DNA from: Tilletia caries
Lineage: Eukaryota; Basidiomycota; Exobasidiomycetes; Tilletiales; Tilletiaceae
Length of the DNA stretch: 64,000 nt
Assembly: GCA_032718865.1 (NCBI GenBank)
Contig: JALUTQ010000045.1
Coordinates: 186,001-250,000 of the forward strand
Direction: 5' to 3'
Each line of letters starts with the position of its first letter. The first letter of the stretch is position 1. Made by a program: the position numbers and the translations under genes. The notes under the pieces were generated by a model. That model had not been told where the DNA came from. It ran no database searches and worked only from the letters and a program-made list of their open reading frames with translations. Shown piece after piece: positions 829-42,775 of this stretch.

Positions 829-2499
829 TCAGTCTTGGTCGTCCCTTTTCGCAGTGAGCTTATAATCTGGTTCGGCGGGTCGTTCTGCTGATGCTGAGGG
901 CACAATGGACATTGAACTAATCCAGTTCTTTGCCTTGAAGATGTCGACCGTAAGTTCGTAAATGCTGATCTCTTCGCCACCCATCATCCTCGACTCCAAC
1001 AAGTGCTCCGGTGAAATATCCTCGCGAACATGTATGCCTTTGGTGGACTTTTCGCGGGTTGCGTAGTAGACCTCGATCCAGGGTCCATCCTTGCCTGTTA
1101 CAGGTGCTCCACGAACTTCGATCATAAGGCGAAGCGACCAACGCTCATCCCCATGCTCGATGCTGTGCAAGAACGCGATCGCGGATGCCGGGGCGTCCTC
1201 GATAGCTGGCTTGATAGTGAGCTCTCGGAGACGCAGTTTTCCTAGGGGGTACCACCGCTCGGAAGAATGATTGGCGCACCAGACCGTAGAACGCCATGTA
1301 GGGCGAGGAGTGCTGAGCTTGAAAAGCTTCGACAGCCGAGTAGGTTCTCCAACTGCCCGCAGCAGTCCGCGTACGCTCATGAGGATTTTCCCAAGGTGGT
1401 TCTGTCCCTGACCATCTTGATCACTTCCGAAGTATGTCTGCATCATGGACAAGTGTCAACGCAAATCTTGTGAATTTATTATCAGGCCTTCCTTTTTAGC
1501 ATCCGTGTGAACTCACATCGGCGGAAGTGTAGATGAGTTCTGCATCACCAGTCTGCAGAAGACGAGCTCGCAGCTGCTGGTTTTGACTATACTTGAGGAT
1601 TTGAACTTCTTGCATCTTTGGTGAGCGGAGCGACAGAATTAAGTTCCAATTAGCACTGACCTGGGCAGACGGGGCATTAAAAGGACTCACGATCGCTAGG
1701 CGTTGCTCTTCCCAGTCCGCTAAAACATAACGAGCCCAGTACTGAATAGAAGAAGTCAGGCACTTGAGCCTGGTCTAAAAAGTTCTCCTCAGGAAACCAT
1801 GGAGATTCGAGGAGACTTACTTGTACCTTGTCAAGCACATCTTCGGGCCATTGCGTCTGGATGATGGCTTGCTGCAGATTCGGGTGCTCATGGAACTTGG
1901 CCGCTCTACATGATGCAAAAAACAAAATGGGAGGATATGATGACTTGAGGAGCGATGAGCGTTTCTCCAATTGCACCAAATTGGAAGATGTTACTTTTTA
2001 CTTACTGGAAGGCAGCCTCAGCATTGAAAAACTCAAAGTCACCGAGGGAGATTCGGGAAGGGAAGAGGTTCGAGAGGAAAAAGAAGGGCTTCGAACGACT
2101 TCCAAAGCAGATAACAGGCGTATCTGCAGCGCCGGGCTCGACGGCGACCAGCTCGTCCGAGGGGTTCGCGGATCCTTCGGGCATGACTTCCGATTTTATC
2201 ATGCCCCAGTGATTTGGTGTGAGGGAGATCTTGGATGCAGAATGAGCGGCGTCGGAGAAGCGAAGGTACCACACATATACTAGAGGGAGGCTGCAGTGCG
2301 CGGAAAGGTCAACGAGGTCGCGACCAATGGTGATGTGGTTGCGACGCTGGAATGACAGGACTGTGCGAACGCGAAGAACGCGATGCGAAGGCGACGCGGG
2401 GGGGCGGCACGCGGCACGCGTCGTCAGCATAGCAACAAGAAATTTCCCACGCTCCATCCGCACAGTACGAGCTTCTGAAAGCGACCAATCATGGAGCAA
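829..2499 (-). CDS. NADAR-domain protein A (YbiA-like), divergent, with C-terminal extension
   Basis: NADAR proteins hydrolyse ADP-ribose from nucleic-acid bases or cleave related N-glycosidic bonds. Exons in transcript order: start-2006, 1905-1821, 1741-1691, 1615-1517, 1437-829, all GT-AG and phase-consistent. The start is uncertain: ATG at 2202 gives 346 aa, ATG at 2499 gives 445 aa. Family signatures in order: FLSNLFPS, NAEAAFQ joined across the first intron to AAKF, QLRARLLQTGDAELI, and QNHLGKILMSVR. The intron after the E-A-x-F-Q motif sits at the same position and phase as in NADAR C and D, which supports common descent. Oddity: the usual W-G-x-G motif is replaced by FGSD, so activity is doubtful. 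About 170 C-terminal residues match no domain I recognise. Head-to-head with the ADP-ribosyltransferase gene. Confidence 0.8.
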
Positions 2500-2763
2500 A
2501 TATGGTCAGGTCTGGAAGAAAGGTCATCGCTGCAGCTCATCTAGTCTCTCTATTTCAGCCGGCTGCCTTGCTCTGGTTGCTCATTTCGATGCGCAGGAAT
2601 CAGTAAGGGCAGACTGATCTCATGAGGTGCAGGCTGGTCCCACTCGAGGGGCGAAACGTGTACCAAAAAGCGATAAAGCGAGCTTGGCCGGCTCAGAAGC
2701 TGATCATCTCCTCCCTTGCCTTCTTCCCGTGTCTCTTTTTTTCGTTTCAGCCAGGTAGTTATC
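2203..2763. promoter_or_regulatory. Shared intergenic region between NADAR-A and ADP-ribosyltransferase
   Basis: Between the NADAR-A start (2202, or 2499 if the longer form is right) and the transferase ATG at 2764 there are at most 561 bp. The two genes point away from each other, so this stretch must hold both promoters. A pyrimidine-rich run precedes the transferase start. I see no clear TATA box. Co-regulation is inferred from the geometry only. Confidence 0.5.
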
Positions 2764-3981
2764 ATGCGTGCCGCTCGTGTGCGATTCAATTGCGTGTCCT
2801 GCGGCGTAGGACTTAACCTTGGGGCCCACTGCAGCTGCTGCGAAAGGCGGATCGCGACACAAAGCGGTCCAATCTACATCCCTCTACGACGGAGCGACGA
2901 GATGTATGCAGCCGTCGAAAAGGCTTTCCACTCCGGCTGGCATCATCCCGTGTATCACCCGCCGTGGGTGATCGCCATCCACGCGGTGAGTAAGCAGGCG
3001 GTGTGACTCGAGACTGAACGCTCTGACCAACTGCTCCATCCTTTTGATCGAAAACAGATCCTACCGTCTGAGCAAGCCTCTGCTCAATACGAAGCTGTGC
3101 GCTTCTCCAACGTGTCGTCGAAAGAAAGCAGGCTGTACCGTACGTGAGCCTCCTGTCCTCACTACTTTCGCGACACGGACACTTAAAACTGACTTGATGC
3201 GGTGCTACGTCGACAGATGGGACGGTGAGCATAAGTCAGACGTTCGAGAGTAAATGTACAGCTTACCAATTACAATTATATCCTCCAGAAAGTGGAATGT
3301 GATTTTCCTCCCAGCAGGAAACGACTCTGCGCCTCGCCTACGTGCTCCCTGTGCAGAATTGTGGAAGGAGGCTTCCGTCTCCCTCGGCCTGGACACGCCA
3401 AACCCGTGAACCCGAATGGCTGGGATCGCTTCGGACGCGCCATTGTGAGTTTCAAGGCACTCATAAGGTCGATTCAGGCTCAGCTATCGCCGTTGATTGG
3501 CTCCTCCTTTTCTCATGACAAAGTTGCTGACCTCTACAGACCCCTTCCCCCCTCCTCCTCGTCTACCCCCCTCTCCTCTCTAAGTATACCACTCCGGTTA
3601 GCAGCAAGGCAGCAGACTATGAGAGGAAGCGGAATCCCTGCAAAAACATCGCAAAGAGGGATCGCCACGTTCTGGTCGCCCGAGTCGCAACGGGTCGCAT
3701 GCACAACCTCCTTACCGGCGAGCCTGTAAGCATACTGATTCGGAACAGCGAGCAGTTAGGCCTGACTGACATCATCATTGTCCCCGTCTGAAGAACAGGC
3801 GTGGAGCCCGACAAGGCTACGACTCCATTATCGCCCCAGCAGGCTTCAGTGTCAACTGTAAGTTCCATTTTCAATCCGAAGAACTCAGTCCCAGTCGTTG
3901 TTCACTGACGAAACGATCCTTACCATAGACACCGAACATGCGGTGTACAAGGACTACGGAGCGCTGCCCAATTTCGTGTGA
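2764..3981 (+). CDS. PARP-type ADP-ribosyltransferase, basidiomycete small form
   Basis: Transfers ADP-ribose from NAD+ to a target that is not identifiable here. Exons: 2764-2985, 3058-3139, 3217-3224, 3289-3444, 3585-3725, 3794-3857, 3929-3981; 241 aa. Residues 9-25 carry a CVSCG...CSCCERR pair that looks like a zinc ribbon. The PARP triad can be read in order: His in LYHGT (the HGT is encoded by an 8-nt microexon), Tyr in AIYTTPVSSKAADY, and Glu in NYTEHAVY. LCASPTCSLCRIVEGGF follows the His motif; this cysteine-rich block is typical of the fungal PARP-like family. GYDSIIAPAG precedes the Glu motif, as in relatives. All introns are GT-AG and the frame closes on TGA. Divergent from NADAR-A, which suggests a writer/eraser pair. 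Substrate unknown. Confidence 0.85.
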
Positions 3982-5016
3982 GTGGGAGCATCGTTGTCTT
4001 CTACTCCTTGCACTCGCACCATACACGCACTGAAGCACACCTTGATTGCAGCATTACCTTTCGAGGTGGTTTTTGACGGGGCCAGGTCCCCTCCACCGAA
4101 GGCGTTGTTGTCCTTCTCGTTGCAATCACAAAAACCTGCGCAAAATACCTGTCGAATCAGGGACGTATACAATGCGTTTGGCATACTGTAGTGATACTTG
4201 AAACTCACGGTGTGTCGGTGGATGGGTGAGGATCTTTGCATTGGGATGGTGATGCAACGAAACTGAGTCGGGGTCGAGGAACGAAATTATGAAAACAATA
4301 TGTTTCAGATGTATCGCACGACCGCGCTCCCAGCCTGGACAGCAACAAATACTTTTTTCCCACGAATGTCGCTGCGTCGCTGAAACCCCATCAAAAGCCG
4401 TCGCCCGTCAGCGCGTCAGCCTTGCTCCCTGCAGCCATCCTGGGTCCCTCACCTTCTTACGTTTGACGAATTCCACTTCTGGCGCCTCGATTGAGCGTTC
4501 CTGTGGCATCAAGAAGAAAGTTCGACCGAAATGAGATTCGTTGCTAGGAGTTCCATGCGAGGGAGGGACTGAGTTTTTACGCGGAGGAGATTTCAGACTT
4601 ATTTGCTTTTCTACTCGCTTCATAGTATAAGTATCGTTTGGATGCCACAGTTCCGGCGCGGAACCTTCATTCTCGTTCTCATGTCTCCGCTGGCAGGTTC
4701 AGCCCCGAGGAGGGCTGGAAAACAATTTTCCGGATTTATAGATCTGCCCCCCAGGAACGCGGCACGAGACTGTGTATGTACAAAAGGTGCTGACCCGTTC
4801 TCGTTCTAGCTGTCTTCCGCTCTTTACCTCCTCTCCTTCCACACCTCTCTCACTCCCCTTCTGTCCTCACTCCGTGCGGCTGGTCTGCACACGTTATTCC
4901 ACCTTGCCTCCTTGCTTTTACAGATACACGCTTTGAGTGGCCGGTCCGCTCTCCCTCTTCAATCGTCTACCATCCCTTGCCCGACCCCCGGCTGTCCTGG
5001 ACGCTTCGCCGCCGCC
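3982..5016. other. Intergenic region, no gene seen; 5' block shared with the secreted family
   Basis: No convincing exon in either strand. From about 4650 onward the sequence is repeated upstream of the other two secreted-family copies (ending at 39867 and 41894). It includes a CCCCGAGGAGGGCTG-like block and a TTATAG element at about 4737. A probable 3' splice site at about 4920 suggests an intron in the 5' leader. The nearer to the ATG, the higher the identity between copies. Confidence 0.5.
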
Positions 5017-5790
5017 ATGAAGTGCATCAGCGCCCCTGCCATCGTCGCTTTCCTCCTTTCGTCCGCCATCTTGAGCGCGGCCCAACCTGTGCCTGTCTTG
5101 CGCACCCAGGAACGAGCTGCTCGCCCTGTCGAGCGTCCCCACGGCGCTTCACCCGATGGGGCACTTGCCCTCCGCACGTTGGTGAGTTTCATCGATGAAC
5201 TCGGAACACACCTGCAATCCAGGAAAGCCGTATTGACGCCTCTAACTCAATTGCATCGTTGACTGTACAGGTCTCCGACTCGGACGCACTGTCAGCAAGG
5301 GCCAACGGCTACCTGGCGAAGCGAGGACTTTTCGACATTGTGAGCTCTCTCCCAGGCGGCGGCCAAAGATCTATCAGAGTACTGACCGTTGTTGTTCTTA
5401 CATCTTCCGTTCGACAGTTCAAGACATTTGGTTCGAAGTTCATGACATTAGCCGAGAAGAACCCCAAAACAGCAATCGCAGGCACCGCAGCTATCGGCTT
5501 AGCGGAGTCTTTGATGGAGCGTGACAATATGTTGATGTCAGACGCCAATGTTGTGCGACGGTCCATGATGGTTGCCTCGGACCCAAGGTCGATGGTATGT
5601 TTTCGCTTCGCTGTTGGTTCACTCCTGATGCCTGACATCAACACTGACAGATCGACTCCAACTCCCGTCGCCGATGCAGAGCGCCTCAGACCTGACGAAG
5701 AGGGGAGGACTCTGGGACCTTGTAAATGCTGCCACAATCGTCTATGCGTTGGGCACAGTCATGGGCAAAGTTACCAAAAAGATTCTCTGA
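5017..5790 (+). CDS. Small secreted protein family, copy 1
   Basis: Exons 5017-5181, 5271-5339, 5418-5594, 5680-5790; 173 aa. The N-terminus MKCISAPAIVAFLLSSAI is a classic signal peptide with likely cleavage near SAA-QP. A polar stretch follows, then a Lys-Arg site before GLFDI at the end of exon 2, which continues as a Lys-rich amphipathic segment in exon 3. Exon 4, using the AG at 5678-5679, gives a second TKRGG site and a hydrophobic end rich in V, A and G. The upstream AG at 5649-5650 would stop after 14 codons, so the later acceptor is preferred. No known domain. Two related copies lie at 39868 and 41895. The function is not known; secretion and Kex2-type processing are inference. Confidence 0.65.
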
Positions 5791-6049
5791 TTGTTGGACC
5801 CGTCCAGTAGTTGCTGCACTGCACTCATCGAACGAGACCTTTTGAGGCACTGCGCCCTTACGAACATCCTGGCAACAGTGTACGTGTAAAGCTGAGGCGT
5901 CCGAAGGAATCCGCACGAAGCTTGAAAGTGGTGGATGGCCCATGCAGTACGATGGCTAAGCGGTAGCGGGTAGACGGGGTTGGCTACAGAGCTTTTCCTC
6001 TGGTGCCTCAGGCATTACATTCAGACCCTGGTAGTGCACGGGTTCATGG

Positions 6050-6927: not shown

Positions 6928-7711
6928 CTAGGGAATCTTGATCGCAACGAGGTCCTTAGGCGCTGGGCCTTGGTCCTTGAGCAACTTGCGAACCTCTTGC
7001 AATGCTCTTCCGAGATTGTTTTCCCCGCGACCTCCACCTTCTCCCCACCACGCGTCAGAGCATTCCACCAGGCGAGCGTTGCTGGTATGTACCAGCCAGA
7101 GACCAAGATTCTTGTTCTGGCTGAACTTGAGGTACTGGCAGAAGGTCATCTGCGGCAGTGAGAACAGATCAGGACCGGTCACACGGACACACGCATGTTG
7201 GAACTCACCACCTGCATCTTGATGGCCGGCCAATCCGAACGAACCTCCTTTTCAAGGCTCTAGATGGGATAGCTTGAAGTTAGAACCTGCTTGTGAACGC
7301 TATTCGCATCGATAAGCTGCTCACCTTGGCTTTGTTAAAGGCTCGCTCGGCGGATGTCTCCCTCGCGACTTCCATGAAGCGTTGGGGAGTATTGAACTTG
7401 CATGCCTGGAACAAGACTGCGACGTTCCGAAAGAGGAGCTTCTTGTATACCACGGGACTTGGGTAGTACGAGGCTAGCCAGTGGTACGGCTTCATCCTTT
7501 CCCAGAATCGAATCTGGGCCGAGTCCTTCGCCACGCAGGACGGGCAAGTCCAATCCTTCGATTCGCATCGGTAGAAGCCGACATCTCCAAGAGGAGTTGA
7601 GCATAATGCGCATCGCTTGTCTTGCACTTGATGAACAATGGCATATGCGGAAGTTGGGTGAGGCGAATTCTGCAGGAAGGGCAAAGTGGAAGTGTGAACT
7701 GCAGCGCTCAT
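6928..7711 (-). CDS. NADAR-domain protein B with N-terminal zinc-ribbon-like motif
   Basis: Exons in transcript order: 7711-7325, 7259-7209, 7149-6928; phase-consistent, 219 aa. Residues ~33-60 have CALC...CPSC spacing like a small zinc ribbon, as in the nearby transferase. The NADAR domain covers ~70-205: WLASYYPSPVVY, LFQACKF, RSDWPAIKMQ, LKFSQNKNLGLWLVHT, and the intact WWGEGGGRGENNLG followed by EVRKLL. The Glu normally found four residues before the Gln of the EhxFQ-type motif is Ala here (A-V-L-F-Q), so the active site may be altered. A hydrophobic stretch follows the stop in frame (LAFLFAVSFVIFVYSA) and could be a further exon if the CCCTAG at the stop acts as a splice acceptor. Same family as A, C and D but the most compact. 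Confidence 0.85.
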
Positions 7712-8582
7712 GTGAAGCCGACTGGTACCAGCCGCGACTCACCGAACTTGGAGCGGAAACCGTCACCATCGACATGATGGTGAAAGATTCTGGATCGTCT
7801 GGGTAGGGTAAAGAGGAAGGCGGTGAACAACCTGAAGGGAAAGGAGGGGAAGGGAGGGAGAGTCAAGGGAGGATGTGCGAGTGAGCAGTTCAGTGTCCCA
7901 CCCCGGAAGCTGCGGAAGAATGGTCAGCCTGTGACGCTCGAAAGAACCTCATTCACACATATGTGGGACAAGCCACGATCAACCCATCTTCCTGCCCTCC
8001 GTCCTCGAACCTGCACGCCTGCACCCCCTCTCTCATATCTCATACCTGGTTCTGGTCGTGCGGATAAATGCGGGCGATGCCTTCGAAGTTCGAACGAGTC
8101 GAGACTCGAGACCCAGGAAAAGGCTCCGAGCGTGCTCCCCGATGCTTATGTAAGAACTGGGTGCAGGGTGGAGGCTGAAGGCCAGCAGCTAACGCAAGGT
8201 ACAGGGTAAGGGTTAGGGTGAGCAAGTTCCTGTTGGCGGGGAGGTCAGTGATCAATGAGGACGCGAGGACGAGAGGCTGGAAGGTGAGGAATCTGGATCC
8301 ATCACAGCTCACTCGACGACAGGGGCTCCTGCTCGCTGCGAGATGTGAGGTTGAGTGTATGTAGTGCGCCAGATTTTGTCTTGTTCGCGCTCCCTATATT
8401 AATACCGTCCAGCTTCGACCAAGTGGAAGAAATCTTTACCCCCCTCCATCATCCACCGCCCCTCTCCGCCGCCCTCTTCCTCCCGCTGACGATTTTAACG
8501 ACCCCTCTCATCAACTAACGAAGTAACGACCGCTCTGTAACGAATCATACCCCCAGTCTCCATCTCACTTCCAACAATACAT
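7712..8582. other. Intergenic region between NADAR-B and membrane protein
   Basis: Divergent promoter region for NADAR-B (minus) and the membrane protein (plus). It is GA-rich on the plus strand near 7830-7880 and holds a short GGGTAAGGGTTAGGGTGAG stretch at about 8205-8223. No gene seen. Pyrimidine-rich tracts at 8430-8500 precede the plus-strand gene. Confidence 0.4.
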
Positions 8583-13104: not shown

Positions 13105-16100
13105 ATGTCACACGGCGGCGTCAAGTCTCCTCGTGAGTGCTTGCTTGCTTTTGTACGAAATCTTGAAGCTGCGCTGATGTTCATTATAACCTTTGGAAGC
13201 TCTCACAAGTCAGCCTGTTGCTTCACACGCCCCCGAAGACGTCGAGGCCAGGACTCGCAAGGTGAATCGTTGGCGGGAACGGATCCCTACGACTTTCGAT
13301 GCGGATGAGCTGACGATGAGGCTTGAGTATTTGCAGCTTGACCAAGACATACGTGATGTCAAACATCGGCTGGAAAAAGCTCGTCGCCATCACTCATCAA
13401 CCTGCGTCTGCACCTAACGCTACGTCCGCACCTGTCGCTGAGAATGAGCGCCCCGTGCCTACGCCCGCACCAGTTGCTCTTTCTACGTCTGCTGGCACCA
13501 TAAAGCGCTCTTCTCAGATTCCCCGTGCACGCAGCGCCGTCGCTCGAAGCGGAAAGAATGGCAAGACGGAAATCCACTCTGGCACAGAGACAACTATCAC
13601 GGGCCAAAAACGATCTGCAACATCAAAAACGAAGGCCGGTCCCACACAACCCGTGGTCGATGGCGTCTTGCTTCCGCCTCAAGAAGTACTTCTCATAGCT
13701 CCGACCAAAAAGGGAGCCACGAAGGCCGATCGCGAGCAGCCTGCAAACCATGACTTGACCCAGCCCAGAGCAGTCCTTCCTGTTGTAGCCGGCCCCCCGG
13801 ACAAAGCTCGGAAGGCGAGGGCGCTTAGGGGCGACAATATACAGCGAACTGGGACCGCCTTGGCCCAGGACGGTGCTCGACCACCTGTACCGGAGCTGAA
13901 ACATGCCGCTGAACCTGTTCTTGGCCCTTCCAGCCCCATGCCTGCGCCAAAATCTTCGCTCGCACCTATTCAGGTCGTTCCCAGTGAGAAGTCACATATC
14001 CACTCAGGCTCCGTTGACGCCGAAGTTCAGCATTCCGCAGCATTGAGCTCGCAGGACAATCGCGCGAAAGCTGGAATCCATCTGGGTTCGTTCAAGCCGA
14101 ATGACCTCTTCGCCAACCCACGCCTCGAGCCGAGCTCCTTTGAGAGGACTCAGGAACGCATCAACAAGACTGAAACCCAATCTCTGCCAGCTCCGACTCA
14201 TTCGCCACCTCACCTCGAGATAGAGGCGTATGGTTCCTCTGCTGCTGCAGCCTGTCGTGCGGCAAATGCGTCTCGGCAAGTCGAGGAATCAGCAGACAGA
14301 CGTATATCCGCCTCAACCAAGACGTCTGTTCTTGCTTCCAACCTGAAGTCGCACCGTGCCTCTGCACCTAGTGACAGCGCCTCAACTGCTCCGCCTGCGC
14401 AGAGGTCTTCCCTCGGATTGTGCCCAAGCTCGTTGAAAGTGAACGATTTCTTCGCCAACGGATCATCGAGGCCCAGCCTTGTCGGGGAAATGGAGGCGCG
14501 GACAGGCAAGATAGCATCCCCAACTCTGCCAGCTCCGTTGAAACTGAACGACTTCTTCACCAACGGATCATCGAGGCCCAGCCTTGTCGGGGAAATGGAG
14601 GCGCGGACAGGCAAGATAGCATCCCCAACTCTGCCAGCTCCGTTGAAACTGAACGACTTCTTCACCAACGGATCATCGAGGCCCAGCCTTGTCGGGGAAA
14701 TGGAGGCGCGGACAGGCAAGATGGCATCCCCAACTCTGCCAGCTCCGATTCAGGAAGCTTCACAACCTCAGCTCGATGATGACATGATCAGTTCTGGTGA
14801 TGATGTGGCCTGTCGTACAACGACTGCGGCCCGGCATGTCGACGAATCAGCTGGCGAACGTAAACCCGCCTCGGCCAAGAATCCTACCCTTGCTCCCAAC
14901 ATGAAGGCGACCCTTGCCTCAGAACCCGTCGGTAGCGCTTCGGCTGCTTCTCCCGCGCCGAGGTCTTCCCTTTCGTGCGCCGACGTCGCTCAAGGCGATG
15001 AGCCTTCCACGGACGTGGGCTCACAGATGGTCAACATCGGCAAGGAGCGAGCATCAAGCCGGCCGCCGAGTCTCTCGTGCGCACAAGTCTCAAAGCAACA
15101 AGGTCCTTTCAAGCCACCAAGCACGTTCAAAGATTCCCATTCCCATCGCTCAGCTAATGAGACAGAGAAGCGCAAGGACGACATTCCATGCCCGTATTCT
15201 GTCCAGGAACCCTTCCCAATTCAACCTGAGCTGGGTACGGTCATTTCACGTCAGGAACAACTTGCTTCCGAAACGGCCCCAGGCCCACACACACCTCAGT
15301 CTTCAAGGTCCACTTTGGTTCAAACACGCGGTCCCCAGGCAGCGATCGATATCGACATCATGAACCCTCGCATCGTGAAGAGCAGCGACAGCGGCGATGC
15401 ATCGGGCCCAGGCACTGTGCGCTTCTACCATCGCGGTGAACCGGGGTACTACATGACGAACTTCTTTCATAGTCCCATGTTCCTCGACGGACAGATGTAC
15501 GCGACCAGCGAGGCCTACTTTCAGTAAGCTCCTTCTACCTCTCAGGTCTGTTCGTGTCTCCTTCTAAGCTGACATTCTTGCACCTCCCTATGCAGTTCAC
15601 GCAAGTTTCCTGACGATCGTTGGCTGTTCCAACGAATCGCCAGCGCCGGCAGCCCTCGTGACGTGCTTGATCTTGCCACTGCAAACAAATACATCGTGAG
15701 GGATGACTGGTTCCAAGTCAACGTAAAAGAGGTACGTTCACAACGCCTTGAGCCCGGACATAGAGGACGCGAGTCTCATGATCCTGACCATTACCACTCG
15801 TGCGATCGTGATTTGCAGATGTTTGACGCCGTCATGCTCAAGTTCATCTGCAACTCGACGCTCGCGACGCAGTTGCTCAACACAGGAGATGCGTACTTGA
15901 TCGAAGCCGCACCTAAAGATGTGAGTGATGCAGGTGCTTTTGGGACCTTCTCAAACGCCTCTCCCTATAGCCGATAAACGTTCGCCAAAGCTCATGCTAC
16001 TTTCTTTGCTTTTTCCTTGTTGGGCTGGCCCCAACCCAGAGATTCTGGGGCGAGGGCGACGACAGAACTGGAAGGAACGAGCTTGGGCACGTCCTGATGA

Positions 16101-16253
16101 AGGTTCGCGCAGCACTGCGAAATATCCACGATCTGCGCAAGCAAGCCGTGGACGAAGCTGATGGACGAACTCGCGAAACGTCTCCGTTACCAGCACCTGC
16201 ACCTCCAATTGCTCGTGCTCCCGCTTCTGCCTCCACTCCTGTGCCTTCTTCTG

Positions 16254-17269: not shown

Positions 17270-20200
17270 ATGTCACACGGCGGCGTCAAGAATCGATGTG
17301 AGTGCTTGCTTTTGTCTGAACCTCGAAGCTGCGCTGATGTTCATTACAACTTTCGAAGCCCTTGTAAATCAGCCTCTTGCTGCACACACCGAAGCATCGT
17401 CGAAGAAGAATAAGCGGAAACGAAAGCAGAAAACAGAAGGTCGATATCGGGATGCTTCTTCTCATGAGGACCTGATGGACCTAGATTCACAGCCATGCGA
17501 ATCCGCGAAGGCCAGTTCAGACTCAGCCTGTACGGACTCCGGAAAACACAAGAAGTCCCGTTCTACACACGCCACCGAAGACGTCGAGGCCAGGACTCGC
17601 AAGGTGAATCGTTGGCGGGAACGGATCCCTACGACTTTCGATGCGGATGAGCTGACGATGAGGCTTGAGTATTTGCAGCTTGACCAAGACATACGTGATG
17701 TCAAACATCGGCTGGAAAAGCTCGTCGCCATCACTCATCAACCTGCGTCTGCACCTAACGCTACGTCCGCACCTGTCGCTGAGAATGAGCGCCCCGTGCC
17801 TACGCCCGCACCAGTTGCTCTTTCTACGTCTGCTGGCACCATAAAGCGCTCTTCTCAGATTCCCCGTGCACGCAGCGCCGTCGCTCGAAGCGGAAAGAAT
17901 GGCAAGACGGAAATCCACTCTGGCACAGAGACAACTATCACGGGCCAAAAACGATCTGCAACATCAAAAACGAAGGCCGGTCCCACACAACCCGTGGTCG
18001 ATGGCGTCTTGCTTCCGCCTCAAGAAGTACTTCTCATAGCTCCGACCAAAAAGGGAGCCACGAAGGCCGATCGCGAGCAGCCTGCAAACCATGACTTGAC
18101 CCAGCCCAGAGCAGTCCTTCCTGTTGTAGCCGGCCCCCCGGACAAAGCTCGGAAGGCGAGGGCGCTTAGGGGCGACAATATACAGCGAACTGGGACCGCC
18201 TTGGCCCAGGACGGTGCTCGACCACCTGTACCGGAGCTGAAACATGCCGCTGAACCTGTTCTTGGCCCTTCCAGCCCCATGCCTGCGCCAAAATCTTCGC
18301 TCGCACCTATTCAGGTCGTTCCCAGTGAGAAGTCACATATCCACTCAGGCTCCGTTGACGCCGAAGTTCAGCATTCCGCAGCATTGAGCTCGCAGGACAA
18401 TCGCGCGAAAGCTGGAATCCATCTGGGTTCGTTCAAGCCGAATGACCTCTTCGCCAACCCACGCCTCGAGCCGAGCTCCTTTGAGAGGACTCAGGAACGC
18501 ATCAACAAGACTGAAACCCAATCTCTGCCAGCTCCGACTCATTCGCCACCTCACCTCGAGATAGAGGCGTATGGTTCCTCTGCTGCTGCAGCCTGTCGTG
18601 CGGCAAATGCGTCTCGGCAAGTCGAGGAATCAGCAGACAGACGTATATCCGCCTCAACCAAGACGTCTGTTCTTGCTTCCAACCTGAAGTCGCACCGTGC
18701 CTCTGCACCTAGTGACAGCGCCTCAACTGCTCCGCCTGCGCAGAGGTCTTCCCTCGGATTGTGCCCAAGCTCGTTGAAAGTGAACGATTTCTTCGCCAAC
18801 GGATCATCGAGGCCCAGCCTCATAACTGTGGCGCGGACGGGCAAGATGGCATCCCAACGTCTGCCAGCTCCGATTCAGGAAGCTTCACAACCTCAGCTCG
18901 ATAATGATATGGTCAGCTCCGCTGATGATGTACCGTGTCGTATACCGACTGTGGCTCGGCAGGTCGACAAATCAACTGGCGAACGTAAACCCGCCTCGGC
19001 CAAGAATCCTCCCTTTGCTCCCAACCTGGGGTCGACATTTGCCTCAGCTTACGGTGGCAGCGCTTTGGCTGCTTCTTCTGCGCCGAGGTCTTCTCTTCCG
19101 TACGCCACCGTCGCTCAGGACGACAAGCCTTCCACAGACGTGGGCTTCCAGATGGTCAACATCGGCAAGGAGCGAGCATCAAGCCCAGAGCCCAGTCTCT
19201 CGTACGCGCAAGTCGCAAACCATCCGGTTTCCTGTGTCCACCGCCCAGCTGAAGGGACAGGGGAGCGCAAGGACAACACCGCATCTCCATATCAACCATA
19301 TTCAGATCAAAAAGCCTTGCACAGCCAGCCTGAGCAGGTCACGGTCGTTTCACGTCGGGAACAACCTGCTTCCGAAACGGGCCCGGGCCCACGTACCACT
19401 CGGTCTTCAGAGTGGACCTCAGTTCAAACATACGGTTTCCAGGCGGAGATCGATATCGACACCATGAACCCTCGCATCGTGAGGAGCAGCGACAGCGGCG
19501 ATGTATCGGGACCAGGCACTATGCGCTTCTACCATCGCGGTGAACCTGGCTATTATATGACGAACTTCTTTCATAGTCCCATGTTCCTCGACGGACAGAT
19601 GTACGCGACCAGCGAGGCCTACTTTCAGTGAGCTCCTTCTGCCTCTCATGTCTGTTCGTATCTCCTTTTGGCTGACATTCTTACACTTCTCCCCGCAGGT
19701 CACGCAAGTTTCCTCACGATCGTTGGCTATGCCAACGAATCGCCAGCGCTCGAAGCCCTCGCGTCGCTCTCGATCTCGCGACTGAAAACAAACGCATCTT
19801 GAGGGATGACTGGTTCCAAGTCAACGTACAAGCGGTACGTTTACAACGCCTTGAACCCGGACGTAGAGGACGCGCGGCTCATGAACCTGACCATTGCCAC
19901 TCATGCGATCGTAATTTGTAGATGTTTGACGCCGTCATGCTCAAGTTCATCTGCAACTCGACGCTCGCGACGCAGTTGCTCAACACAGGAGATGCGTACT
20001 TGATCGAAGCCGCACCTAAAGATGTGAGTAGTGCAAGCGTTCCTTGAGTCCCTCTCAAAAGCCTCTCCTGGGCCGATAAACGTTCGCCAAAGCTCACGCT
20101 ACTGACTACAATCCCCTTTTCTTTCCAATTTCCTTGTCGGGACGCCTCCAACGCAGAGATTCTGGGGCGAGGGCGACGATAGAACTGGCAGGAACGAGCT

Positions 20201-20882
20201 TGGGCACGTCCTGATGAAGGTTCGCGCAGCACTGCGAAATATCCACGATCTGCGCAAGCAAGCCGTGGACGAAGCTGATGGACGAACTCGCGAAACGTCT
20301 CCGTTACCTGCACCTGCACCTCCAATTGCTCGTGCTCCCGCTTCTGCCTCCACTCCTGTGCCTTCTTCTGCTGCTCCTGCTCCTGCTCCTGCTCCTGCTC
20401 TTGGGGCCAGGCCACGAAACACGTCCAAAGATTCCCACCTCCACCGCTCAGCCGAAGGGGCAGAGGAGCGCAAGGACGACACTGTATCCCCACATCAACC
20501 AGATTCAGATCCAAAAGCCTTGCACAGCCAGCCTGAGCAGGTTCCGGTCAATCCACGGCAGGAACGACTTGCTTCCGAGCTGGGCTCACGTCCACATCCA
20601 CCTCGGTCTTCAAGGTGGCCTCCGGCTCAAACACACGGTTCCTGGGCAGGGATCGATGTCGATGTCAACCTTGCGTCCTCAATTCCTGCCACTCCTACCA
20701 CCCCTCCTACTCCTGCTACCCCTGTTACTCCCGCTACCCCGAAGCCTAGCACGCCCGAACCTCGCAGCGGCAGTTCAAACAGGTCCTCGACGATCCGTTC
20801 GAGCCCCAGTATATTCTCGGCGACAGTCGGCAGCCTCAAGAGAGCCGTCTTCCACCGCTTCAGGACACGGAAAGATTCGTGA
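17270..20882 (+). CDS. NADAR-domain protein D, intact tandem copy
   Basis: Exons 17270-17297, 17359-19627, 19699-19834, 19922-20023, 20157-20882; 1086 aa. Layout: basic patch SSKKNKRKRKQK near residues 23-34 (likely nuclear signal); possible helical segment ELTMRLEYLQLDQDIRDVKH; about 550 disordered residues with NDxFAN repeats; NADAR domain at ~733-878; Pro/Thr/Ala-rich tail. The NADAR signatures are all present: YYMTNFFHSPMFLDG, TSEAYFQ, RDDWFQVNV, LNTGDAYLIEAAPKD, RFWGEGDDRTGRNELG, LMKVRAALR. The tail repeats the ~70 residues that precede the domain (ERKDxT...ALHSQPEQ...). Of the four NADAR genes this is the only one with no visible lesion in frame or motif. The expected reaction is removal of ADP-ribose from guanine in DNA or RNA; the in vivo target is not known. 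Confidence 0.85.
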
Positions 20883-39397: not shown

Positions 39398-39867
39398 CCG
39401 TGAGTCATTCATCTCATCTCATCTCATATGCACATATCGCCATTCGCTAATTCGCTGTCCATATAAGAAGGATGAATTGCCGGTTGAACGTTTCCAACTT
39501 CCAGCGATGCGCGATGCGCATTGGGCCTTCACTTCGGTGTTCGCTGGCGACGCCCCGAGGAAGAACAATTCCGTATCTGGAGAACAGCCCCAAAAATCGA
39601 CCTCAGGCACGACACGTAGCCAGAGTACAAAAAGTGCTGGCTGACCCGTTCTCATTCTAGCTGACTTCTGCTCTTTCCTCCTCTTCTTCCACATCTCTTT
39701 CAGTCCCCCTTCTGTCCTCACTCCGTGCGGCTGGTCTGCACACGTTATTCCACCTTGCCTCCTTGCTTTTACAGATACACGCTTTGAGTGGCCGGTCCGC
39801 TCTCCCTCTTCAATCGTCTACCATCCCTTGCCCGACCCCCGGCTGTCCTGGACGCTTCGCCGCCGCC

Positions 39868-40624
39868 ATGAAGTGCATCAGCGCCCCTGCCATCGTCGCT
39901 TTCCTCCTTTCGTCCGCCATCTTGAGCGCGGCCCAACCTGTGCCTGTCTTGCGCACCCAGGAACGAACTGCTCACCCTGTCGAGCGTCCCCACGGCGCTT
40001 CACCCGATGGAGCACTTGCCCTTCGCACGTTGGTGAGTTTCATCGATGAACTCGGAACACACCTGCAATCCAGGAAAGCCGTATTGACTACTTCAATTGC
40101 ATCGTTGACTGTACAGACCTCCGACTCGAACGCGCTGTCGGCAAGGGGCATTAGCTTCGCAGCCGCTATGGCCGTCATGAAAGAGTCGGCTACGGCTGTG
40201 AGTTGTCTCCTAGGCGGCGGCCAAATATCTAAAGTACTGACCATCATTGTCGTTTGTACATCTTCCGTTCCATAGCTTGGGGAAGTAACCGATAAGCACT
40301 TCGGCCTACTTTTGTCAGGCACCGCAGCTGCTTCGTTCTGGAAAGGTCTACGTTCGCGTGACGTGCTGCAGCCAGACCACAACGATGCGCGACGGTCCAT
40401 GATGGATGCCTCGGGCCCAAGGTCGACGGTATGTTTTCGCTTCGCTGTTGGTTCACTCCTGATGCCTGACATCAACACTGACAGATCGACTCCAACTCCC
40501 GTCGCCGATGCAGAGCGCCTCAGACCTGACGAAGAGGGGAGGACTCTGGGACCTTGTAAATGCTGCCACAATCGTCTATGCGTTGGGCACAGTCATGGGC
40601 AAAGTTACCAAAAAGATTCTCTGA
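39868..40624 (+). CDS. Small secreted protein family, copy 2 (mosaic)
   Basis: Exons 39868-40032, 40117-40197, 40276-40428, 40514-40624; 169 aa. Exon 1 encodes the same signal peptide and polar stretch as copies 1 and 3, sharing ERTAHPVER with copy 3. Exon 2 starts alike but then encodes a different Ala/Met-rich end (GISFAAAMAVMKESATA) without the KRGLFDI site. Exon 3 is also largely its own. Exon 4 and ~250 bp of 3' flank are almost identical to copy 1, including TKRGGLWDL. The gene thus combines a copy-3-like 5' part, a private middle and a copy-1-like 3' part. Secreted, function unknown. Confidence 0.65.
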
Positions 40625-41894
40625 TTGTTGGACCCGTCCAGTAGTTGCTGCACTGCACTCATCGAACGAGACCTTTTGAGGCACTGCGCCCTTACGAGCA
40701 TCCTGGCAACAATGTACGTGTTAAGCTGAGGCGTCCGAAGGAATCCGCACGAAGCTTGCAAGTGGTGGATGGCCCATGCAGTACGATGGCTAAGCGGTAG
40801 CGGGTAGACGGAGTTCGCCGCAGAGCTTTCCTCAGGCACCTCAGGCCTCAGGCCTCAGGCACTGATTTCAGACTCTGGAAAGCGACGACGTCGTGGCCGT
40901 TGATTTATGCTGCACACGGTGGATGCTTCGCGCAGAGAGACAGAGAGAGAAGGGAAAGAGGGATGAGAAGACGGATGGACCTCCGGTCCTCCGCCGCGCT
41001 TCACGCAGGGCACCTGTGTCAGAACGACGATTTCTCCAACTCCTTCGACCTCAGTAAGCAACGCTCATGGATGTAGTCCTTATCAGCTGACCAGGTACAA
41101 TTGAGAGTAACGTTCGCTGGAAGGAGAGGACAGCTGGCTGGAATGCGTAATATGAACATTATGAACGCAACAACCAGTAATCTCGGTAATATCAGAGCGG
41201 GGTGCGATGCATGAAGCATGAAGAGCGAATCAACATGATGAGTACATCAAGCTCACTGCTCAGCTGCGCAACGCAATGAAGAGCGGAAGTAATGGGTCGC
41301 GACCAATGAATAATGTGGTATGTGGCCACGATGGTAAGTGCTGCGACGTGCATCGCGATGCGTTCGCAACTCTCAACCAGACAGCAAAAATCAATCATTC
41401 TCACGCTTTCGTCCCGTCGTCCCCACGGCCTCAAGACCAAACAAAAGCCGGCAGCCTACATACAGCCACGCAGCCACCCTGTTTTCCTGATCTCGCTAAA
41501 GTAGACCTTCCAGCGAAGCACCTTCATTCTCATTTCAATATCTTCGCTGGCAAGTTCAGCCCCGAGGAGGGCTGATAACCAGATCTTCCGGACTTATAGT
41601 ACAGCACTGCCCCTCACGTCAGCCTCAGGCACGATACGCAGCCACAGTAAAAAGTGTGCTGGCCCGTTCTCATTCTGCGTTATGTAGTTGACTTCTGCTC
41701 TTCACCTCCTCTTCTTCCACACCTCTTTCACTTCCCTTCTGTCCTCACTCCGTGCGGCTGGTCTGCACACGTTATTCCACCTTGCCTCCTTGCTTTTACA
41801 GATACACGCTTTGAGTGGCCGGTCCGCTCTCCCTCTTCAATCGTCTACCATCCCTTGCCCGACCCCCGGCTGTCCTGGACGCTTCGCCGCCGCC
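40625..41894. other. Intergenic region between secreted copies 2 and 3
   Basis: The first ~250 bp match 5791-6040 downstream of copy 1. (CCTCAGG)n-type short repeats occur at about 40832-40862. From about 41500 the sequence matches the upstream blocks of copies 1 and 2. No gene seen. Confidence 0.5.
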
Positions 41895-42775
41895 ATGAAG
41901 TGCATCAGCGCCCCTGCCATCGTCGCTTTCCTCCTTTCGTCCGCCATCTTGAGCGCGGCCCAACCTGTGCCTGTCTTGCGCACCCAGGAACGAACTGCTC
42001 ACCCTGTCGAGCGTCCCCACGGCGCTTCACCCGATGGAGCACTTGCCCTTCGCACGTTGGTGAGTTTCATCGATGAACTCGGAACACACCTGCAATCCAG
42101 GAAAGCCGTATTGACTACTTCAATTGCATCGTTGACTGTACAGACCTCCGACTCGAACGCGCTGTCGGCAAGGGCCAACGGCTACCTGGCGAAGCGAGGA
42201 CTTTTCGACATTGTGAGCTCTCTCCCAGGCGGCGGCCAAAGATCTATCAGAGTACTGACCGTTGTTGTTCTTACATCTTCCGTTCGACAGTTCGAGAAAT
42301 TTGGTTCGAAGTTCATGGCATTAGCCGAGAAGAACCCCAAAACAGCAATCGCAGGCACCACAATCATCGGCTTAACGGAGTCTTTGTTGCGGCGTGACAA
42401 CATATTGATGTCAGACGCCAATGATGTGCGACGGTTCATGATGGTTGCCTCGGACCGAAGCCCGACGGTATGTGTTCGCTTCGCTGTTGGGTCTGTCTTG
42501 ATGCTTGACCTCAACGCTGACAGAACATGAGTCTCTGCCACTCTACTCTAGCATCAACTTTCGACGAGATCTCTTTCGAGGACGTGGCTGCCGCGAGCAG
42601 TCCAACTCCCTCCTCCTCTTATCGCTGGAGCTACTCGGCTGCCCTGGCGATGAGCGCGTTGCTGTTCCTGTTGTGGGAAAGTCTGTGGATTGTTGTCGCA
42701 TCATTGTATGATGCCGATGCCACTTCCGACGCCGATGGCGACGGCGCTCTGTCGGAGCAGTTGCAGTTCAGGTAG
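41895..42775 (+). CDS. Small secreted protein family, copy 3 (long C-terminal exon)
   Basis: Exons 41895-42059, 42144-42212, 42291-42467, 42524-42775; 220 aa. Same signal peptide as the other copies. Exon 2 ends with the Lys-Arg then GLFDI site of copy 1, and exon 3 continues with a Lys-rich amphipathic stretch (FGSKFMALAEKNPK). The last exon is different and longer: Ser/Thr-rich, then a hydrophobic helix (YSAALAMSALLFLLWESLWIVVASL) and an Asp-rich tail. A membrane-anchored product is possible. This last exon survives as a relic downstream of copy 1. No known domain. Confidence 0.65.

Follow-up and report, generated by a model that had tools for sequence, protein, structure and literature searches.

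A contig of the Tilletia caries genome (JALUTQ010000045.1 of assembly GCA_032718865.1; C39 below) carries a PARP-type gene lying head-to-head with a gene of the NADAR family. These are PARP-A, on the plus strand, and NADAR-A, on the minus strand, of the 64,000-bp stretch analysed here, C39:186001-250000 (the window). A second locus on C39 holds another head-to-head pair, PARP-L and NADAR-L, and a third PARP gene, PARP-R. All PARPs detected in the genome (38.1 Mb, 40 contigs) lie within about 1 kb of a NADAR (3/3). Our tentative reading is that Tilletia has an old, co-inherited head-to-head PARP-NADAR pair, present twice in this genome, whose members would serve one ADP-ribosylation cycle. The window pair itself is real and probably functional, of the writer/eraser type, and a eukaryotic variant of the bacterial modules that join an ADP-ribosyltransferase (ART) to a NADAR. 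Because each detected PARP adjoins a NADAR, the arrangement may represent, in a eukaryote, the kind of write-and-erase system that has until now been described in bacteria. Searches of an open-licence library listed no report of PARP-NADAR linkage in fungi.

The Divergent Gene Pair

The first-pass annotation of this DNA had proposed a divergent PARP/NADAR pair. Both genes are found where it placed them, with open frames, Pfam matches and Tilletia database proteins (Table 1). The seven introns of PARP-A are all GT..AG and 64-140 bp long, and the frame is open across them. The protein matches PF00644 (PARP) at 36.3 bits against a Pfam cut-off of 26.7, and no other Pfam family matches up to E 1; domain, H-Y-E residues and PARP fold together place it in the PARP (ARTD) family. 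It is identical to T. caries protein P0001 at 195/195 aligned residues and to T. controversa P0002 at 164/171. The triad that had been called readable can indeed be read, as the His of LYHGT, the Tyr of AIYTTP and the Glu of NYTEHAVY. The H-Y-E assignment in PARP-A, PARP-L and PARP-R is read from the alignment and from PARP motifs. The N-terminal CX2CX9CX2C motif, which is zinc-finger-like, may bind metal.

The right end of the pair had been set at 3981. The stop there is a read-through into the last PARP-A intron, and the same read-through occurs in the database protein P0001. We prefer an end at 4076 because the paralogues P0003 and P0004 have an extra exon; the last exon, placed by analogy with these two, would give the better end. 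Among the annotated Tilletia PARPs, P0002 and P0004 are without the HGT microexon, and P0007 is without the cysteine-insert exon. The absence of HGT from the first two models fits a missed microexon. Thus, through loss of the microexon or the insert exon, database PARPs can look inactive by a fault of the gene model.

NADAR-A matches PF08719 (NADAR) at 86.6 bits, over a cut-off of 35.1, and its fold and score place it in the NADAR superfamily. It shares 339/346 residues with T. controversa P0011. Its start is taken as the ATG at 2202, as in P0011, the frame being open upstream to an ATG at 2457. The C-terminal all-beta domain, a beta-sandwich, was read from the model of P0011. The conserved Glu and Lys are kept (E62 and K69 of P0011), with the spacing of 7 seen in E43/K50 of P. 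nicotianae. The two genes had been said to share at most 561 bp, which is exactly the distance between the ATGs at 2202 and 2764.

The Second Locus and the Linkage of PARP to NADAR

The second locus, C39:596.3-600.7 kb, is 409 kb from the window pair. PARP-A, PARP-L and PARP-R have in common the microexon, the His, Tyr and Glu, the N-terminal CX2C..CX2C motif and a CX4CX2C insert; in PARP-L and PARP-R, the 8-nt exon falls at the same place as in PARP-A. PARP-R and the database protein P0003 agree at 255/255 residues. NADAR-L has the YbiA-type Glu in its last strand. Accordingly, an H-Y-E ART neighbouring a YbiA-class NADAR is found in PARP-L/PARP-R with NADAR-L, and not in the window pair. A Copia-type gag open reading frame (ORF; PF14223, 88.4 bits) occupies C39:595325-596158, about 160 bp downstream of PARP-L.

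Table 1. Features of the window (positions within the window) and of the second locus (positions on C39).
Feature	Position	Strand	Remarks
PARP-A gene, 248 aa	2764..4076	+	spliced model; PF00644; matches T. caries P0001
PARP-A, 8 exons	2764-2985, 3058-3139, 3217-3224, 3289-3444, 3585-3725, 3794-3857, 3929-3977, 4052-4076	+	
CX2CX9CX2C motif (CVSCGVGLNLGAHCSCC)	2791..2841	+	zinc-finger-like; N-terminus of PARP-A
8-nt microexon	3217..3224	+	completes the catalytic His codon and codes for Gly-Thr of LYHGT
NADAR-A gene, 346 aa	829..2202	-	NADAR domain, then C-terminal all-beta domain
NADAR-A exons	2006-2202, 1821-1905, 1691-1741, 1517-1615, 829-1437	-	open across canonical introns
Shared 5' region, 561 bp	2203..2763		between the start codons of NADAR-A (2202) and PARP-A (2764)
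NADAR-B core matches	6955..7534	-	another residue at the first catalytic Glu position; third Glu present
NADAR-C core matches	15396..16162	+	Glu-Lys-Glu kept; no PARP-A-family PARP found adjoining
NADAR-D core matches	19518..20279	+	near-tandem copy of NADAR-C, 82% over 2.1 kb; no PARP-A-family PARP found adjoining
PARP-L	C39:596316-597518	-	head-to-head with NADAR-L, 365 bp
NADAR-L	C39:597884-599099	+	between PARP-L and PARP-R
PARP-R	C39:599410-600697	-	tail-to-tail with NADAR-L, 310 bp

PARPs were detected with two protein queries, PARP-A and a T. horrida PARP. The PARP-A query gave ten exon matches that resolve into the three genes, and the T. horrida query recovered the identical three. 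A metagenomic relative, used as query, found none of these genes. A PF00644 family search of the genome gave zero matches, missing even PARP-A, and it gave no signal in a control either; PARPs of other types may therefore exist in the genome.

If the two PARP loci were placed at random, both would fall at most 1 kb from a NADAR with p of about 1.7e-6. With placement confined to the initial 600 kb of C39, this chance rises to about 0.005. The copies are old: identity among the PARPs is 45-51%, NADAR-A and NADAR-L agree at 101/239 residues (42%), and a comparison of the window with the second locus as DNA gave no match. In the NADAR tree, T. indica proteins stand on the A-type and the L-type side alike, so that the A/L split appears to predate the split between T. 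caries and T. indica; the tree carries a long-branch warning, with T. indica P0040 among the long branches. The PARP tree does not separate the order of A, L, R, T. indica and T. horrida. In T. controversa, the PARP P0002 and the NADAR P0011 report a longest contig of the same length (278146 bp). This suggests, and does not prove, that T. controversa has the linkage too. The first-pass annotation had asked for adjacency in related genomes; the pairing recurs at the second locus of the same genome, and T. controversa gives a hint of it.

A Proposed ADP-Ribosylation Cycle

Where a PARP has stayed next to a NADAR, the best reading is that it writes a mark which some NADAR can deal with. The PARP would transfer ADP-ribose (ADPr) from NAD+ onto a target through a NADAR-cleavable bond. 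PARP-domain enzymes target protein and sometimes nucleic acid. The target here would most plausibly be guanine in nucleic acid. Guanine is favoured because the NADARs assayed to date take ADP-ribose off guanine, on DNA as well as RNA (PMC11543638, PMC11833690), and the bacterial ones tested are described, in the passages cited, as inactive on uracil-ADPr (PMC13036486) and on RNA phosphate ends (PMC11833690). Human PARP10 is described as modifying uracil in RNA (PMC13036486). NADAR-L is the likely eraser. NADAR-A might be a hydrolase of altered chemistry or an ADP-ribose-binding partner, and in either case its beta-sandwich domain would aim it; the shared 5' region could co-regulate NADAR-A and PARP-A.

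The role of NADARs across eukaryotes has been called unclear (PMC11125620). Through the PARP-NADAR adjacency of this genome, a eukaryotic NADAR gains a concrete candidate writer, and one can test directly whether bases are reversibly ADP-ribosylated outside bacteria. The genome also supplies a built-in contrast, since its three candidate writers are matched by two partner NADARs, of which NADAR-L has the catalytic Glu and NADAR-A does not.

The NADAR Family in the Genome

Of the 14 NADAR places in the genome, 12 fall within the first 600 kb of C39; C1 has one, and C3 has one that is weak and degenerate-looking. A query with T. caries P0039, a relative of NADAR-L, added a single stray match on C7 (E 0.9), and NADAR-L is single-copy by this query. 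The last-strand Glu is present in NADAR-L, NADAR-C and NADAR-D. NADAR-B has a paralogue at C39:559.7-560.3 kb, likewise without the first catalytic Glu, and in the NADAR-B region (6928-7738) a Cys-rich stretch precedes the NADAR domain. A 1.3-kb stretch with internal repeats, 98.6% identical in its two copies, lies before NADAR-C (13221-14537) and before NADAR-D (17563-18872). This identity indicates a recent near-tandem duplication. Four A-type NADAR genes form an array at C39:32.3-43.3 kb; about 1.2 kb after it is a NUDIX-like ORF (C39:44.5-45.8 kb; 20.7 bits, just below the cut-off of 21.1) that, by eye, resembles ADP-ribose pyrophosphatases; such an enzyme would break down free ADP-ribose. 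A macrodomain gene is present on C40, so other erasers may exist.

NADAR-L is identical to P0039 at 286/314 residues (91%). The 28 changes are crowded in the C-terminal domain (20/159, against 4/142 in the NADAR domain; p 0.0022), with 4/13 in the N-terminal tail. For comparison, the three wheat-bunt species are reported to be 98.7-99.6% identical at the nucleotide level where they align (PMC9172201), and PARP-A and PARP-R vary less than NADAR-L, as the values given above attest. Fast evolution or balanced alleles might account for this; with one other sequence of the species group compared, the variation is a lead and no more.

Directly after PARP-A is the first of three copies, 83-90% identical, of a small-protein gene (window 4651-6013, 39601-40846 and 41508-42524). 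The start of the protein is signal-peptide-like by eye, and two ORFs of this gene had no Pfam match.

Weighing the Explanations

Several observations weigh against a shared write-and-erase cycle. The catalytic NADAR classes, YbiA, BC4488 and phage, are described as having Glu, Asp or His as third residue, in the last strand (PMC11543638, PMC11125620). In P0011 and NADAR-A this position is Tyr140, so that NADAR-A falls outside these classes and, with Tyr for the last-strand Glu, outside the YbiA subfamily. The window's eraser may therefore be altered or inert; that is, NADAR-A may have changed or lost hydrolysis. Its six A-type sisters in the genome have Tyr or Phe at this position, and the database A-types, 15/15 among the matches listed, likewise are without the catalytic Glu. 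The motif of PARP-L is LFHRT, against LYHGT in PARP-A and PARP-R. For 11 of the 13 non-degenerate NADARs, no PARP of the PARP-A family was found adjoining. Both loci could go back to one ancestral pair that was duplicated once, and they would then be non-independent. In T. indica, the PARP P0004 and P0040, the relative of NADAR-L, report two separate contigs, 31186 and 28709 bp long, and at such lengths linkage is hard to judge. Two NADAR database searches gave no T. horrida protein among the matches listed, one of these lists drawing on a capped candidate set, and T. horrida has two such PARPs. Compared with the first-pass annotation, then, the linkage is stronger and NADAR-A as eraser is weaker. 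Its idea of a writer/eraser module is partly supported: by the second old head-to-head pair, by the third PARP, and by the two protein queries, in which every PARP gene matched adjoins a NADAR. The Tyr of NADAR-A stands against it.

Adjacency by historical accident is a possible, though rather unlikely, explanation. The genes would be chance neighbours, copied once as a block and held together by fungal gene order, with proteins whose jobs are unrelated. The crowding of 12/14 NADAR places into the first 600 kb of C39, which yields the chance of about 0.005, speaks for accident, as do the reduction of both loci to a single event by one duplication and the many NADARs without a PARP-A-family neighbour. 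It is hard to square with a head-to-head layout kept despite the low identity of the PARPs and NADARs and the lack of matching flanking DNA, and PARP-R adjoins NADAR-L as well. Less probable is a write/read device, in which the PARP marks proteins and the A-type NADARs are non-hydrolysing ADP-ribose readers or carry out other nucleotide-sugar chemistry. Against it, phage NADARs as a class are described as having His at the third position (PMC11543638), and the T4 phage NADAR as reversing guanosine-ADPr (PMC11833690), which argues that the position tolerates some change; moreover, NADAR-L has its Glu while flanked by two PARPs.

It is improbable, in our estimate, that the genes form a toxin/antidote-like or self/non-self system. 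Here the PARP would mark guanine and harm cells without an allele-matched NADAR to erase the mark, and the altered NADAR paralogues and fast-changing C-terminal domain would be recognition or decoy parts. The analogy with YarT-YbiA and DarT1-NADAR (below) favours it, as do the variation of a single-copy NADAR-L in a group of such high identity and the sign from the tree that A-type NADARs expanded in T. indica separately from the T. caries group. Against it, the writers vary less, and the NADAR-L variation comes from one other sequence. Very doubtful is a role of NADAR-A and its kin as riboflavin-pathway N-glycosidases unrelated to ADP-ribosylation. YbiA-related NADARs of plants and fungi are indeed linked to riboflavin synthesis (PMC11543638), but 13 diverged copies with shifting active-site residues are unlike one housekeeping step, and the PARP linkage is left unexplained.

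Comparison with Known Systems

Among the known systems nearest to the proposed write-and-erase pair is YarT-YbiA, a myxobacterial ART/NADAR toxin-antitoxin described in PMC11125620. It too has an H-Y-E ADP-ribosyltransferase adjoining a YbiA-class NADAR, and NADAR-L has the YbiA Glu. As described there, YarT is small, resembles the Rhs/Tre23 ARTs and is encoded in a bacterial operon, whereas the Tilletia enzyme is of PF00644 and has N-terminal CX2C motifs. The Tilletia genes are divergent and have introns, and the NADAR has an extra beta-sandwich domain. DarT1-NADAR (DarTG1, PMC11543638) likewise has a writer and a NADAR eraser as neighbours. The Tilletia writer matches PARP and, in Pfam up to E 1, no DarT family; the system is eukaryotic and head-to-head rather than an operon, and NADAR-A is without an acid at the YbiA glutamate position.

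Relative to the stand-alone eukaryotic NADAR of P. nicotianae (PDB 8bau), NADAR-A has Tyr for E125 and FG for WG, and adds the C-terminal beta-sandwich and a PARP neighbour. With the clade 1 and clade 6 PARPs of fungi, as described in PMC2964712 and PMC4245714, PARP-A shares the PARP catalytic domain, and its cysteine-rich stretch before that domain recalls clade 6. It differs from them in being short, in having no other Pfam domain, and in carrying the CX4CX2C insert inside the catalytic domain.
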